From positions 1-59,120 of the forward strand of contig JAGBZD010000127.1 of NCBI GenBank assembly GCA_017628395.1: a DNA stretch of 59,120 nt, in the 5' to 3' direction. The stretch comes from Paludibacteraceae bacterium (GTDB taxonomy: Bacteria; Bacteroidota; Bacteroidia; Bacteroidales; Paludibacteraceae). Made by a program: the position numbers and the translations under genes. Below the pieces are notes generated by a model, which was not told where the DNA came from, made no database searches, and saw only the letters and a list, made by a program, of their open reading frames with translations. Below, in pieces: positions 50,166 through 53,383 of the stretch. Each line of letters opens with the position of its first letter. Position 1 is the first letter of the stretch.

Positions 50166-51203
50166 TTAGAAATTCAACGCCAAACCGATACCATTTTGAC
50201 TGGTTTGTAGATTCAAAGACAAATCTGCTCTAACCATATTTTGTTTATTAAAGCGACGGGGGGTATTATTTACGATACCATGTCCTGCACTCAAAACAGG
50301 AATAGAAATGAAGGTTAATCCTGCACCTCCACAAATAAGTCCAAGTCCAGGTTCCCAATATTTAATATATTCGTGTTCTTTTTCAGGTGACCAATAGCCA
50401 TACATCAACGATTCTGCTTTTATCATTAGTACGCCACCTGCAACTGTTGCTGCTGCACCGAAGGCAAACATTGTCCATCCAGCTGATATACACGCTTTTC
50501 CACGCAAATAACGCTTAAAAACCTCAGGGGCGTTGTTACGCAAAAATGCTTCGTAAGCTTTTTTATCCATTTGGGTCTCACCGTACGAATAGGCCTGCAC
50601 ACCAAATAGTTTTTGATCTGTTTTAGAATTACGAACTAATTGTATTTCAGCGGGTACTAACTCTATTTTTGCTTTCTTTGGTTGGTCTTGCTTTTTAAAT
50701 ACTGATTTTTTCTCTGTTTCTACGGCAGAAGTTGTGTTTTCTTCATAAAACATTTTTTTTGCCAATGCAATACAACCTTTTTGAATGGCATCTGCTGTCG
50801 TTCCCATCATCATATTATCAGTCATAATCGTGCGTGCAGTTTCTACATCCAGTAGCTTAGCAGTAATAAACATAGTTCTTGCATCTACCACAACTGCCTC
50901 TGCTACAAGAATATAGTTAGCACCTGTCATTTCACCCAATCGTTTGATTTGGTCGTTGCTTACCAAACCTGTGCGTTGGAAATCTTGTTCACCCATAATC
51001 GCATCGATGTCTGTACGATCATACGCCTCATAACCTGAGGTTTGTGTAATCGCTTTACTCAAGTTCGCACGCAAAATCAATTTGTTAGCGTACGAAACTT
51101 TGTTTTCCTTGTCCACAGTTTCCAAAATTGCGACACGCTTTACTTGGGCAGACATCATTCCTGAAATCAACAGGAATAAGAATAAAATAGTTTTTGTTTT
51201 CAT
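50166..51203 (-). CDS. CsgG/LpoB-like exported protein with two C-terminal membrane segments
   Basis: Protein of 345 residues; signal peptide ends MMSAQV. Residues about 20-150 look like the CsgG/FlgO/LpoB fold (RVAILETVDKENKVSY, LRANLSKAITQTSGYEAYDR, IKRLGEMTGANYILVAEAVV), found in proteins that assemble outer-membrane structures or activate peptidoglycan synthases. The C-terminal part (about 235-320) holds two hydrophobic segments (AGWTMFAFGAAATVAGGVL and GLGLICGGAGLTFISIPVL), an unusual addition. It is last of three co-directional genes. Function within the cluster unknown. Confidence 0.72.
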   Translation of the reverse strand: MKTKTILFLFLLISGMMSAQVKRVAILETVDKENKVSYANKLILRANLSKAITQTSGYEAYDRTDIDAIMGEQDFQRTGLVSNDQIKRLGEMTGANYILVAEAVVVDARTMFITAKLLDVETARTIMTDNMMMGTTADAIQKGCIALAKKMFYEENTTSAVETEKKSVFKKQDQPKKAKIELVPAEIQLVRNSKTDQKLFGVQAYSYGETQMDKKAYEAFLRNNAPEVFKRYLRGKACISAGWTMFAFGAAATVAGGVLMIKAESLMYGYWSPEKEHEYIKYWEPGLGLICGGAGLTFISIPVLSAGHGIVNNTPRRFNKQNMVRADLSLNLQTSQNGIGLALNF

Positions 51204-51230: not shown

Positions 51231-52307
51231 TTAGTTATTTATAATTTCTTTAACTTTTGTGGCAACTTGCTGATAAACTTCTGCATATGCAACATAAGCC
51301 GCTTCTTCACGATTGAGCGTGTGTGAACCTTTTTCGCTAAAACTACCCTCGTATATCGTACTCTGCGTATTGCCTTTCACTATTTGCAATGCCACTTCTG
51401 CCATAACGAAGTAGGCAGTATAAGCGCCAGTCTGCAAGGTGTTATATTCGCGAGTTGTTCCATGCAACCAAATCACCCAATCCGCCTCTGCTTCGTTTTT
51501 GGTGAAAGTACAACCCATAGGAGAAATCTCCTGCTTAATCTGCTGAATCAATGTGGGGTATGTTTTTTCAAAAATAGTCACCTCTCCACCAATATATATA
51601 GCCACTCCATTTTTCAGTTGTTGATACAATGCAGTTGCTCGTTGTTTGAGTGCGTTACTCTCTGCAAAAGCAATATCTTCCATTTCGGTATTGCTATCCA
51701 CGCTTTGTACTACTTTTTGTTGCTCCAGTACTTGCTGCAAATGTTCAATGGCTTTGGCTATGGATTTGCGTGCTGCATTTTTCTCTCCTTCTGCCAACAA
51801 ACCCTCTGCTTCTTCTATTGCCATTTCAGCGCGAGTTACATGACTGATAATCTGCTTCTTTAGCGTGCGAACCAAGTCTGTTTTCTTTACCCATGCAAAA
51901 GCAAATATCTCGTTCGTTTTGGGATTATGCCAACTCTCAACAGATAAGTTGGGAATATCTTTTAGCGAACTGTGAATAGTGGTTGAAGTACTGAATAGTT
52001 CGCGAGTCATTTCGCTAAATCCCATTGTACCAGAATGTTGGTCGCTCTGCACAATAGAGGATGAAGTATATTCTACGCTGGTTGTGATGTTTTGTACTGC
52101 CTCTGCTTGTGCTTTCTCTTTTATGCGTTGAAGCGTTTGCTCAACGCTTTCGCCTGCTTGCACTTCGCCCATGACAAAGCCACAGACATACGATGTTCGT
52201 GGGTATGTTGCAGCTCGCCAATTGTCGTCACACCATAATGGTGCAGTACTTTGACCAAAAGCCAAAATACTACACCATACACTCAGTATCAAGATAGTCG
52301 TTCTCAC
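51231..52307 (-). CDS. LPP20-like secreted protein
   Basis: Protein of 358 residues beginning at a GTG that overlaps the TGA of the upstream gene (GTGA), which argues for coupled translation. The signal peptide ends LAFGQS. Residues about 25-135 are LPP20-like (YVCGFVMGEVQAGESVEQTL, KEKAQAEAVQNITTSV), residues 140-200 a helical hairpin, and the C-terminal 120 residues a CsgG-like beta/alpha segment (GGEVTIFEKTYPTLIQQI, AYFVMAEVALQIVKG). No enzymatic motif. It parallels the LPP20 proteins at 34419 and 37012. Confidence 0.7.
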   Translation of the reverse strand: MRTTILILSVWCSILAFGQSTAPLWCDDNWRAATYPRTSYVCGFVMGEVQAGESVEQTLQRIKEKAQAEAVQNITTSVEYTSSSIVQSDQHSGTMGFSEMTRELFSTSTTIHSSLKDIPNLSVESWHNPKTNEIFAFAWVKKTDLVRTLKKQIISHVTRAEMAIEEAEGLLAEGEKNAARKSIAKAIEHLQQVLEQQKVVQSVDSNTEMEDIAFAESNALKQRATALYQQLKNGVAIYIGGEVTIFEKTYPTLIQQIKQEISPMGCTFTKNEAEADWVIWLHGTTREYNTLQTGAYTAYFVMAEVALQIVKGNTQSTIYEGSFSEKGSHTLNREEAAYVAYAEVYQQVATKVKEIINN

Positions 52308-52939
52308 TCGGCACTACCATTACGGATAAATTCACTCACTTTCTCTGCGTACTTTTGTGCGACAGCAGACTCTTTGGCTGCATTTTCAAAAGCACGGATA
52401 CGAGCAGCAGAAGCGGCATCTATATCTACAATAAAGTATGCTTCAAACTCATAGGCAGGTACACCATTGTGTTTTATTTCACGATAAATGCAGAATGTGT
52501 TGTGTAATTCGCCCTTTATTTCGGCAGTTACATTATTTTCATACGCAGCGTAAAAGTGTTCAAACTCATCTAATTCTTCTGGAGTTAATCTGGAAGCCAT
52601 GTCTCCATTGATACGACCTTTGATGTTGCTGCCCATTTCTTGTGCGTACTTGGTGCAAGCATTCATTATCAGTTTATCTTTCGCGAGGTTTTTGTTTGTA
52701 GATATAGTTTGTGTGGTAATCTCCTTTACTCCATCATCAGTTAATTTCTCATAGTGCAGCAACAATGCTACTTCCAATGTGCGCGAAGTGCCAAATACTT
52801 TCCAATCGCCCTTGGCGTACTCCTTCATTTTGAGTTTGTACTCTTTTTTCAATTGTTTTTCCAACTGCTTGTTTTGTGCATTGGCGGGAACGGCTACAAT
52901 AGCCAAAGCCATGAGGGCTAATACGATTGTCTTTTTCAT
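52304..52939 (-). CDS. Secreted LPP20-like protein, first gene of the operon
   Basis: Protein of 211 residues with signal peptide 1-21 (ends VPANAQN). The mature protein starts with a basic helix (KQLEKQLKKEYKLKMKEY), then GDWKVFGTSRTLEVALLLHY and a long alpha-helical region with FENAAKESAVAQKYAEKV. The pattern of a short strand then Ala-rich helices resembles LPP20/FlgP relatives, but the match is weak. The gene follows the structured RNA whose terminator lies at 53002-53036, so expression needs either read-through or a promoter I could not find between 52940 and 53000. Confidence 0.65.
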   Translation of the reverse strand: MKKTIVLALMALAIVAVPANAQNKQLEKQLKKEYKLKMKEYAKGDWKVFGTSRTLEVALLLHYEKLTDDGVKEITTQTISTNKNLAKDKLIMNACTKYAQEMGSNIKGRINGDMASRLTPEELDEFEHFYAAYENNVTAEIKGELHNTFCIYREIKHNGVPAYEFEAYFIVDIDAASAARIRAFENAAKESAVAQKYAEKVSEFIRNGSAE

Positions 52940-53001: not shown

Positions 53002-53036
53002 AAAAAAGCGTGAAACTTGCTGTTTGCCAGTTCCAC
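53002..53036 (-). terminator. Intrinsic terminator of the candidate RNA
   Basis: Minus-strand GTGGAACT (53036-53029) pairs with AGTTTCAC (53017-53010) across an 11-nt loop with one G-U pair, then GC and six T residues. Confidence 0.6.
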
Positions 53037-53345
53037 AACTTGAGGCTCTCGCATTGCCTAATCTCATCGAACCGACAACGCGAAGCCCACGCCGAATATA
53101 AACATTCTCCGTGCTATTTCTTAGTTAAGGTACGCGTGTGCGCATACGCATATACGCAAAAGGCGTACCAAAATAGGCACAAGAGGGATAATCTATATCC
53201 CGTAGGACATCTATCGTTGCTAAGTCCTGATGAGATTCTGAAATTTGCGAGATTTCAAGTTGTCAGAACAGAGCGCTAATAAACGCCTTTTTAATATGTC
53301 TGCAAAACCCTCCGCCGATGTGCAGACATCCCTTCGTTGGGTTTC
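53002..53345 (-). ncRNA. Candidate structured noncoding RNA of about 340 nt
   Basis: On the minus strand a consensus promoter (53352-53383) predicts a start near 53345, and an intrinsic terminator (8-bp stem with one G-U pair, then six T) ends at 53002. Between them no convincing protein frame exists but stems abound: ATGTCTGC/GCAGACAT (53322-53329 with 53296-53303), TGAAAT/ATTTCA (53239-53257), AGGAC/GTCCT (53204-53228), GGGATA/TATCCC (53185-53201), GGTACGC/GCGTACC (53129-53169). AAACCC at the 5' end (53344-53339) can pair with GGGTTT (53310-53305) inside the first loop, making an H-type pseudoknot, and GATGT/ACATC offers a competing hairpin. I could not match it to tmRNA, RNase P RNA, SRP RNA or 6S RNA. 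It may be a trans-acting RNA or a leader of the LPP20 operon. Confidence 0.55.
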
Positions 53346-53351
53346 GCGCTG

Positions 53352-53383
53352 CAAAGGTAGTAAAAAAAATGTATATGTGCAAG
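53352..53383 (-). promoter_or_regulatory. Promoter of the candidate RNA
   Basis: On the minus strand CTTG (53383-53380), 20 nt, then TACCTTTG (53359-53352). It matches the other strong promoters in the window, including CATATACA in the spacer and CAGC after the -7 box. Confidence 0.82.

Follow-up and report, generated by a model that had tools for sequence, protein, structure and literature searches.

The window analysed here is the whole stretch of 59,120 nt taken from contig JAGBZD010000127.1 of a Paludibacteraceae bacterium. Its minus strand carries a Bacteroidetes-type promoter, an RNA (~53345-53002) and a three-gene operon of the LPP20/CsgG type, the first gene of which starts at 52939, 3' of the U-tract of the RNA (Table 1). 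Relatives of the protein encoded by this first gene were found in 2 of 61 genomes of the genus, namely its own and one other. In the latter genome (G030), a three-gene operon related to that of the window is again headed by the RNA with its gene order changed; the CsgG-like proteins of the two operons are 43% identical over 256 columns and the LPP20-like proteins 32%. The persistence of the RNA at this type of operon despite the change in gene order argues for an association between the two. The RNA is thus the leader of the LPP20/CsgG-type operon and, at the same time, a member of a Bacteroidales RNA family, two readings that the first-pass annotation of the sequence had offered as alternatives and that hold side by side.

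Several properties proposed in the first-pass annotation were confirmed. The consensus promoter consists of the element TACCTTTG and an upstream TTG and was not listed by a generic sigma-70 scan. The intrinsic terminator is represented by a run of six U residues preceded by a GC stem. No credible open reading frame was seen by eye in the RNA region, where a 61-aa frame begins upstream of the promoter. The region from 53348 to 53002 folds with -134.2 kcal/mol (z -8.0), which none of 100 shuffled sequences equalled, and the minimum-energy structure is a rod devoid of the loop-loop contact described below because the fold is pseudoknotted. Independent transcription of the minus-strand RNA is plausible.

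Table 1. Promoter, RNA and operon features on JAGBZD010000127.1 in window positions (x separates paired strands); the last row refers to other loci of the family.
Feature	Position	Strand	Remarks
Promoter, -33-like TTG	53380..53382	-	read directly
Promoter, -7-like element TACCTTTG (TAnnTTTG)	53352..53359	-	read directly
5' extension with H-type pseudoknot	53303..53345	-	read directly; without covariation
Conserved RNA core, GACATA to U-tract	53002..53302	-	common to otherwise unrelated loci; 111 copies aligned
Stem A, outer, 5' domain	53206..53287: 53287-53279 x 53214-53206	-	91.8% paired; 5/9 pairs with two-sided change
Stem mid, 5' domain	53224..53269: 53269-53264 x 53229-53224	-	77.5% paired; 5/6 pairs with two-sided change
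var1, 5' strand of hypervariable helix	53256..53263, partner 53042-53035	-	91.2% paired; 8/8 two-sided; top of covariation scan
Hairpin hp1	53241..53255: 53255-53253 x 53243-53241	-	94.9% paired
5' kissing strand (hp1 loop)	53252-53247	-	kissing helix 97.4% paired; 6/6 pairs with two-sided change
var2, 5' strand	53231..53234, partner 53066-53063	-	71.4% paired; 4/4 pairs with two-sided change
Helix B, 5' strand GTCC	53205..53208, partner GGGC 53088-53085	-	93.0% paired; overlaps Q and A
Stem Q, 5' strand GCGTGG	53087..53092, partner 53013-53008 adjoining U-tract	-	97.1% paired
Stem Hanti, 3' domain	53025..53077: 53077-53069 x 53033-53025	-	91.7% paired; 7/9 pairs with two-sided change
Hairpin hp2	53044..53058: 53058-53056 x 53046-53044	-	97.3% paired
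3' kissing strand (hp2 loop)	53052-53047	-	pairs with hp1 loop
var1', 3' strand of hypervariable helix	53035..53042	-	pairs with var1
Local terminator hairpin T	53010..53036: 53036-53029 x 53017-53010	-	alternative to Q + Hanti
U-tract (U6)	53002..53007	-	read directly; preceded by GC stem
Operon gene 1	52304..52939	-	211 aa, secreted by eye; no Pfam match
Operon gene 2, LPP20-like	51231..52307	-	358 aa; no Pfam match, name by eye and from first-pass annotation
Operon gene 3, CsgG-like	50166..51203	-	345 aa; no Pfam match, name by eye and from first-pass annotation
DUF805b RNA (RF02914)	L032 1968-2002; L041 1874-1908; L042 2346-2380; L066 1601-1635		

A search of the whole window against Rfam 15 (4227 families) at gathering score returned one tRNA and nothing over the RNA, where three chance-level matches (up to E 10) lay below the threshold. 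Neither the Rfam models nor ARAGORN found a tmRNA, RNase P, SRP or 6S RNA, in line with the earlier statement that the hallmarks of these classes are absent. Over the window and 20 family loci together, Rfam 15 recognised only tRNA, 5S and DUF805b RNA, none of them over the core. The structured RNA is real in terms of its fold and falls into no class known to Rfam 15, and the family is apparently uncatalogued there. The DUF805b RNA was located between the RNA and the start codon in 4 of the 20 scanned loci, forming two leader elements in tandem. It is a cis element by its Rfam type and adjoins the RNA on the downstream side, but it comprises 35 positions and is a separate element alongside the leader RNA.

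The literature provided no description of such a leader, within a search that covered neither preprints nor most subscription papers. No such RNA was found in the available parts of a Bacteroides thetaiotaomicron transcriptome paper (PMC7366714) and of a survey of 104 motifs (PMC2864571), and the main texts of two surveys of non-coding RNAs in 50 and 26 genomes (PMC11109978, PMC8632094), as far as accessible, contain no Bacteroides or Prevotella terms.

Homologues were sought using blastn with the RNA region against 61 genomes of genus and order, which returned multiple matches, both in the own genome and in relatives. A covariance model was built from 38 aligned copies of the 5' half, in which 15 of 24 pairs had changed on both sides. 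In the own genome this model matched 32 times, corresponding to 22 solid places, one weak one and nine echoes on the opposite strand, the latter arising because the 5' half is nearly palindromic. The genome accordingly carries about two dozen copies, of which that in the window is one. Across the genus sample the RNA was present in 58 of 61 genomes, and in all 26 with at least 90% completeness and at most 5% contamination; model matches reached 30 per genome, a figure that may include opposite-strand echoes. In the order it occurred in at least 89 of 393 genomes and at least 56 of 206 genera, both lower bounds since the scan scored 11 candidates per genome. The proposal of a new Bacteroidales RNA is thus borne out. 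Six of 395 genomes matched in the phylum sample, four of them from another order of the same class. By eye, the four forms outside the order are shortened but retain var1, kissing loop, var2, hp2 and Q. These minimal forms (L387-L390) each precede a different gene with a secreted-type start by eye, and would be useful to define the smallest working core.

A pattern made from the 3' half alone was found in at least 119 stretches of named genomes (80 listed) and in five viral contigs. Among the listed matches are records of Prevotella ihumii, Bacteroides caecigallinarum, Muribaculaceae, Phocaeicola and Paludibacteraceae. Of the 85 loci from the 3' pattern that were submitted to the 5'-half model (80 named, 5 viral), 78 matched, which indicates that both halves belong together. 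Non-Bacteroidales names are attached to three of the 80 listed named records (L192 Clostridium, L213 Firmicutes, L253 Lachnospiraceae); each of these is of MAG type or uncultured, and binning or naming errors are presumed. Searching phage and plasmid collections with the window copy as query gave no match. One copy (L045, 1972-2082) is truncated: beyond the mid stem of the 5' half it continues with unrelated sequence.

As read from the aligned sequences, the core of ~250-300 nt is composed of a 5' and a 3' domain that are joined by a three-part loop-loop interaction. The 5' domain contains stems A and mid with the apical loop var1-hp1-var2, the 3' domain stems Q and Hanti with the apical loop var2'-hp2-var1', and the two apical loops pair antiparallel via var1, a hairpin-hairpin kissing helix and var2. 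For the alignment, 136 model hits were reduced to 118 by a full-length filter (18 dropped) and to 111 non-redundant full copies by removal of seven redundant ones. The filter required hp2-, Q- and TTT-like motifs and biases the counts for these features upward, while var1, kissing loop and var2 are unaffected. Over the 54 proposed pairs, 90.5% of cells were paired, compared with 76.8% in shuffled and 35-49% in slid alignments, and two-sided changes numbered 945 versus 296 after shuffling. An unguided scan of all column pairs in the 111 copies, for which we used a G-test of our own, with 20 null alignments that preserve the tree and with a tail obtained by extrapolation, rather than R-scape, yielded 11 pairs with E<0.05, all in var1 or the kissing helix. 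The next ranks were taken by hp2, A, var2, Hanti, hp1 and Q, mixed with apparent clade noise. Of the outcomes that the first-pass annotation had named as refuting, an Rfam hit and a lack of covariation did not occur. The local hairpin T is weakly conserved, being 69.6% paired over all copies against 65.1% after shuffling.

Helix B draws on part of the 5' strand of stem Q and on part of the 3' strand of stem A. At the base common to B and Q, all eight copies with an A have U at both partners. Such a triple covariation is expected if the B and Q pairings both matter; by parsimony it amounts to about two independent changes.

The H-type pseudoknot at the 5' end, which the first-pass annotation had placed at the heart of the RNA, stood in part. 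Its strands exist, with AAACCC (53344-53339) facing GGGTTT (53310-53305) and ATGTCTGC (53329-53322) facing GCAGACAT (53303-53296), the last of which extends into the core. The complement for the second pairing (at least 6 nt) was present in 42 of 152 testable copies compared with 4.7 expected from shuffles. Among 40 listed copies, mostly from this genus, its sequence is nearly invariant, and for this reason covariation lends it no support. The pseudoknot is an optional extension. A pairing of the 5' A-run with the U-tract appeared inconsistent by eye among distant copies and was not counted.

The var1 helix is hypervariable. The 179 core columns are 95-100% identical in 21 pairs of copies, yet in these pairs identity falls to 37% over the six var1 bases, compared with 43% for var2 and 77% for the kissing strand; more distant pairs show similar var1 identities of 36-43%, with one intermediate band at 52%. 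Of 77 extractable copies (79 given) in seven genomes, 72 can nonetheless pair at all six positions, where G-U was counted as a pair and the var1' site was the best of several CCT sites. An automatic var1 search resolved all but 33 of 136 copies, with some accepted matches spurious by eye. Identical var1 sequences recur across genomes, partly in otherwise near-identical RNAs, and var1 therefore seems to be inherited along with the RNA rather than to mutate fast at each locus. The idea that var1 targets the leader downstream of it was rejected, as 29 matches compare with 24.9 +/- 4.5 for shuffled partners, a difference that is not significant.

How RNA loops keep their specificity among many paralogues is the question that such a redrawn yet complementary helix raises. 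As a tentative and rather doubtful answer, we consider a self-addressed module whose halves recognise each other by a loop-loop code particular to each copy, made up of var1, kissing loop and var2 and complementary yet redrawn, while the remaining RNA is kept uniform and exchanged among promoters and genes. An encounter of the halves in trans, as separate fragments or molecules, would call for such a code, and the module would then be a regulatory RNA of an undescribed kind. Speaking against this, equal var1 sequences are not avoided inside genomes, with 15 near-identical pairs against 14.7 expected.

The position of the RNA relative to promoters and genes is consistent throughout the family. 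The 160 nt upstream of the core contain TAnnTTTG in 219 of 240 copies, whereas a control stretch still further upstream has it in 12 of 195; after the U-tract it occurs in 11 of 152. Of 242 copies, 173 allowed the 3' domain to be placed, and 153 of these have a U-run of at least four T behind it. In 182 of 205 loci the next downstream ORF has the strand of the RNA; in 11 it has the opposite one and in 12 none was found, and the distance from the end of the model has a median of 225 nt. The corresponding values for the upstream ORF are 126, 59 and 20. The downstream genes are ORF guesses rather than annotation, and the promoter is recognised by its motif only. Given a same-strand gene and the rarity of a motif in between, the downstream gene seems to be expressed by read-through from the leader. 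The promoter motif ahead, the same-strand gene behind, the scarcity of promoter motifs between them and the covariation of the core are together those of a cis-acting leader.

The genes that follow are very diverse. The 181 downstream proteins form 118 clusters, 91 of them with a single member. Most common as first gene is a small HTH-like family by eye (68-86 aa, 10/181; downstream of L103, L114, L115, L140, L152, L174, L205, L207, L214 and L234), followed by lipoproteins that are LPP20-like by eye (7/181). Among 149 downstream proteins, six are BspA-type LRR proteins and five UpxY antiterminators; envelope lipoprotein, adhesin, capsule, restriction-like, defence-like, regulator and methyltransferase genes occur as well. 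Pfam, PADLOC and NCBIfam searches of the 149 proteins revealed no gene theme, nor did any common function among the downstream proteins point to a signal.

Comparison of copies shows that the RNA is portable between loci. Unrelated flanks surround RNAs that are 97-98% identical in different species (L355/L372 and L382/L078). In the first of these pairs, 98% identity extends from GACATA to ~40 nt past the U-tract, with nothing recognisable outside. The second pair has the -7 element, the 5' extension and the core in common but not the gene, whereas a further pair (L352/L385) shares core and gene but not the promoter. Sharp borders mark the exchange in the four pairs shown, one at GACATA and the other at the U-tract or a little beyond it. 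The exchanges could have come about through homologous recombination between copies. At one locus of another genus, represented in three genomes (L116, L117 and L118, ~1811-2108), flanks and RNA agree to ~98%; the RNA is immediately followed by an ORF of 84 aa in L116 and by an unrelated one of 98 aa (103 aa) in L117 and L118, and the LRR gene that comes next is kept.

Based on these sequence comparisons, we consider it probable that the window RNA belongs to a widespread family of cis-acting leaders, present in multiple copies, that control read-through into accessory and envelope operons. The triple covariation of B and Q leads us to propose that Q, or the local hairpin T, would form beside the U-tract, upon which RNA polymerase would stop and release a leader RNA of ~340 nt. 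Helix B could instead take the shared GUGGGC strand, and polymerase would then read on into the gene; alternatively, a bound factor may hold the RNA in another state and thus permit read-through. A stem and U-tract before the gene, as in an attenuator, are found in most copies (Q 97.1% paired in copies filtered for a Q-like motif, U-run as given above). Q and T both provide a stem beside the U-tract, and the antiterminated state is hence not clearly defined. The module is exchanged among operons, in some cases together with its promoter or gene and in others alone, so that many operons could answer to one signal.

Other explanations account for part of these observations. Their own promoter motif and U-tract, the diversity of the genes behind them and the existence of multi-copy sRNA families in Bacteroides such as FopS (available part of PMC11697453) would also suit free-standing, terminated sRNAs that act in trans, with the genes behind transcribed by unregulated read-through. 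We regard this as unlikely in view of the strong excess of same-strand genes at short distance, the rarity of a promoter motif in between and an association with the CsgG/LPP20-type operon that survives a change of gene order. Improbable as well, but deserving of mention, is a cis-acting RNA for processive antitermination, which could be put-like, EAR-like or a platform for a NusG-type factor, and for which the U-tract would be the first terminator overcome. A resemblance of the leader RNA to put and EAR is presumed here. The promoter-proximal position and the accessory, surface, capsule and defence-like genes among the downstream ones fit such a role, as do the five downstream UpxY proteins, which act in leaders of capsule operons (available part of PMC7315117). 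The genome of the window, however, lacks any UpxY match despite its 22 RNA copies, by which UpxY was rejected as a general partner, and among 22 UpxY genes above the cut-off in 25 genomes, at least one has an RNA copy directly upstream (G424 C19).

The near-identical RNAs between unrelated flanks, the pair that shares core and gene without the promoter, and the sharp borders could alternatively reflect a mainly mobile or recombining element, the core being a landing or exchange site and the RNA structure serving this purpose. This is very improbable in our view, since recombination between copies could account for the exchanges and the strict order of promoter, RNA and gene is unexpected of a selfish insert. 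An origin by chance or annotation artefact, in the form of a low-complexity inverted repeat, could be suspected from the nearly palindromic 5' half and its opposite-strand matches (9/32), but retains virtually no credibility, as it is refuted by covariation far above that of shuffles and slides and is at odds with the wide distribution.

The proposed cis-acting leader resembles attenuating leaders and riboswitches in its 5' location, its complex aptamer-like fold, the stem and U-tract before the gene and the overlapping alternative helices. It differs from them by the lack of a gene theme, by its up to 30 matches per genome and by the hypervariable complementary loop-loop helix. UpxY acts in the leaders of Bacteroides capsule operons, where termination takes place in the leader (available part of PMC7315117). 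Leader termination in operons of Bacteroidales and the UpxY genes behind some copies are common ground with the family; most RNA copies, in contrast, precede other genes. We would see in UpxY-dependent leaders a functional parallel only, set beside the RNA by description. The sRNAs FopS and GibS of Bacteroides are likewise multi-copy and have a sigma-ABfr promoter and a terminator, but act in trans and are built differently, FopS consisting of a single-stranded 5' stretch and a terminator hairpin; they are set apart here by description (PMC11697453, available part). GOLLD, ROOL and OLE are also large, elaborately folded RNAs (PMC12286853, available part), whereas the RNA studied here lacks an Rfam match, occurs many times in a genome and, as a leader, combines a promoter motif, a U-tract and a gene.

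Gut and rumen Bacteroidales thus carry numerous matches per genome to a folded RNA that is missing from Rfam 15. Its copies stand ahead of genes for envelope components, adhesins and capsules and of restriction-like and regulator genes, so that in this dominant group of gut bacteria the accessory genome could have one switch in common. Prevotella ihumii and Bacteroides caecigallinarum are named strains with copies in which the leader RNA can be put to the test.

Additional conserved segments were observed after the U-tract at some loci. L065 and L066 of one genome (G007) have a further leader segment in common (GGGATATATACATAG ... AAGCCCCCGATAATGCATCG) with no Rfam match at gathering score. 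In one subfamily (L034, L035, L038, L050, L355 and others), the U-tract is followed by a conserved tail of 30-40 nt (ACCAACGGGGCGTTTGGAGCCAACTTCCC and variants), and tails of this type precede unrelated genes.
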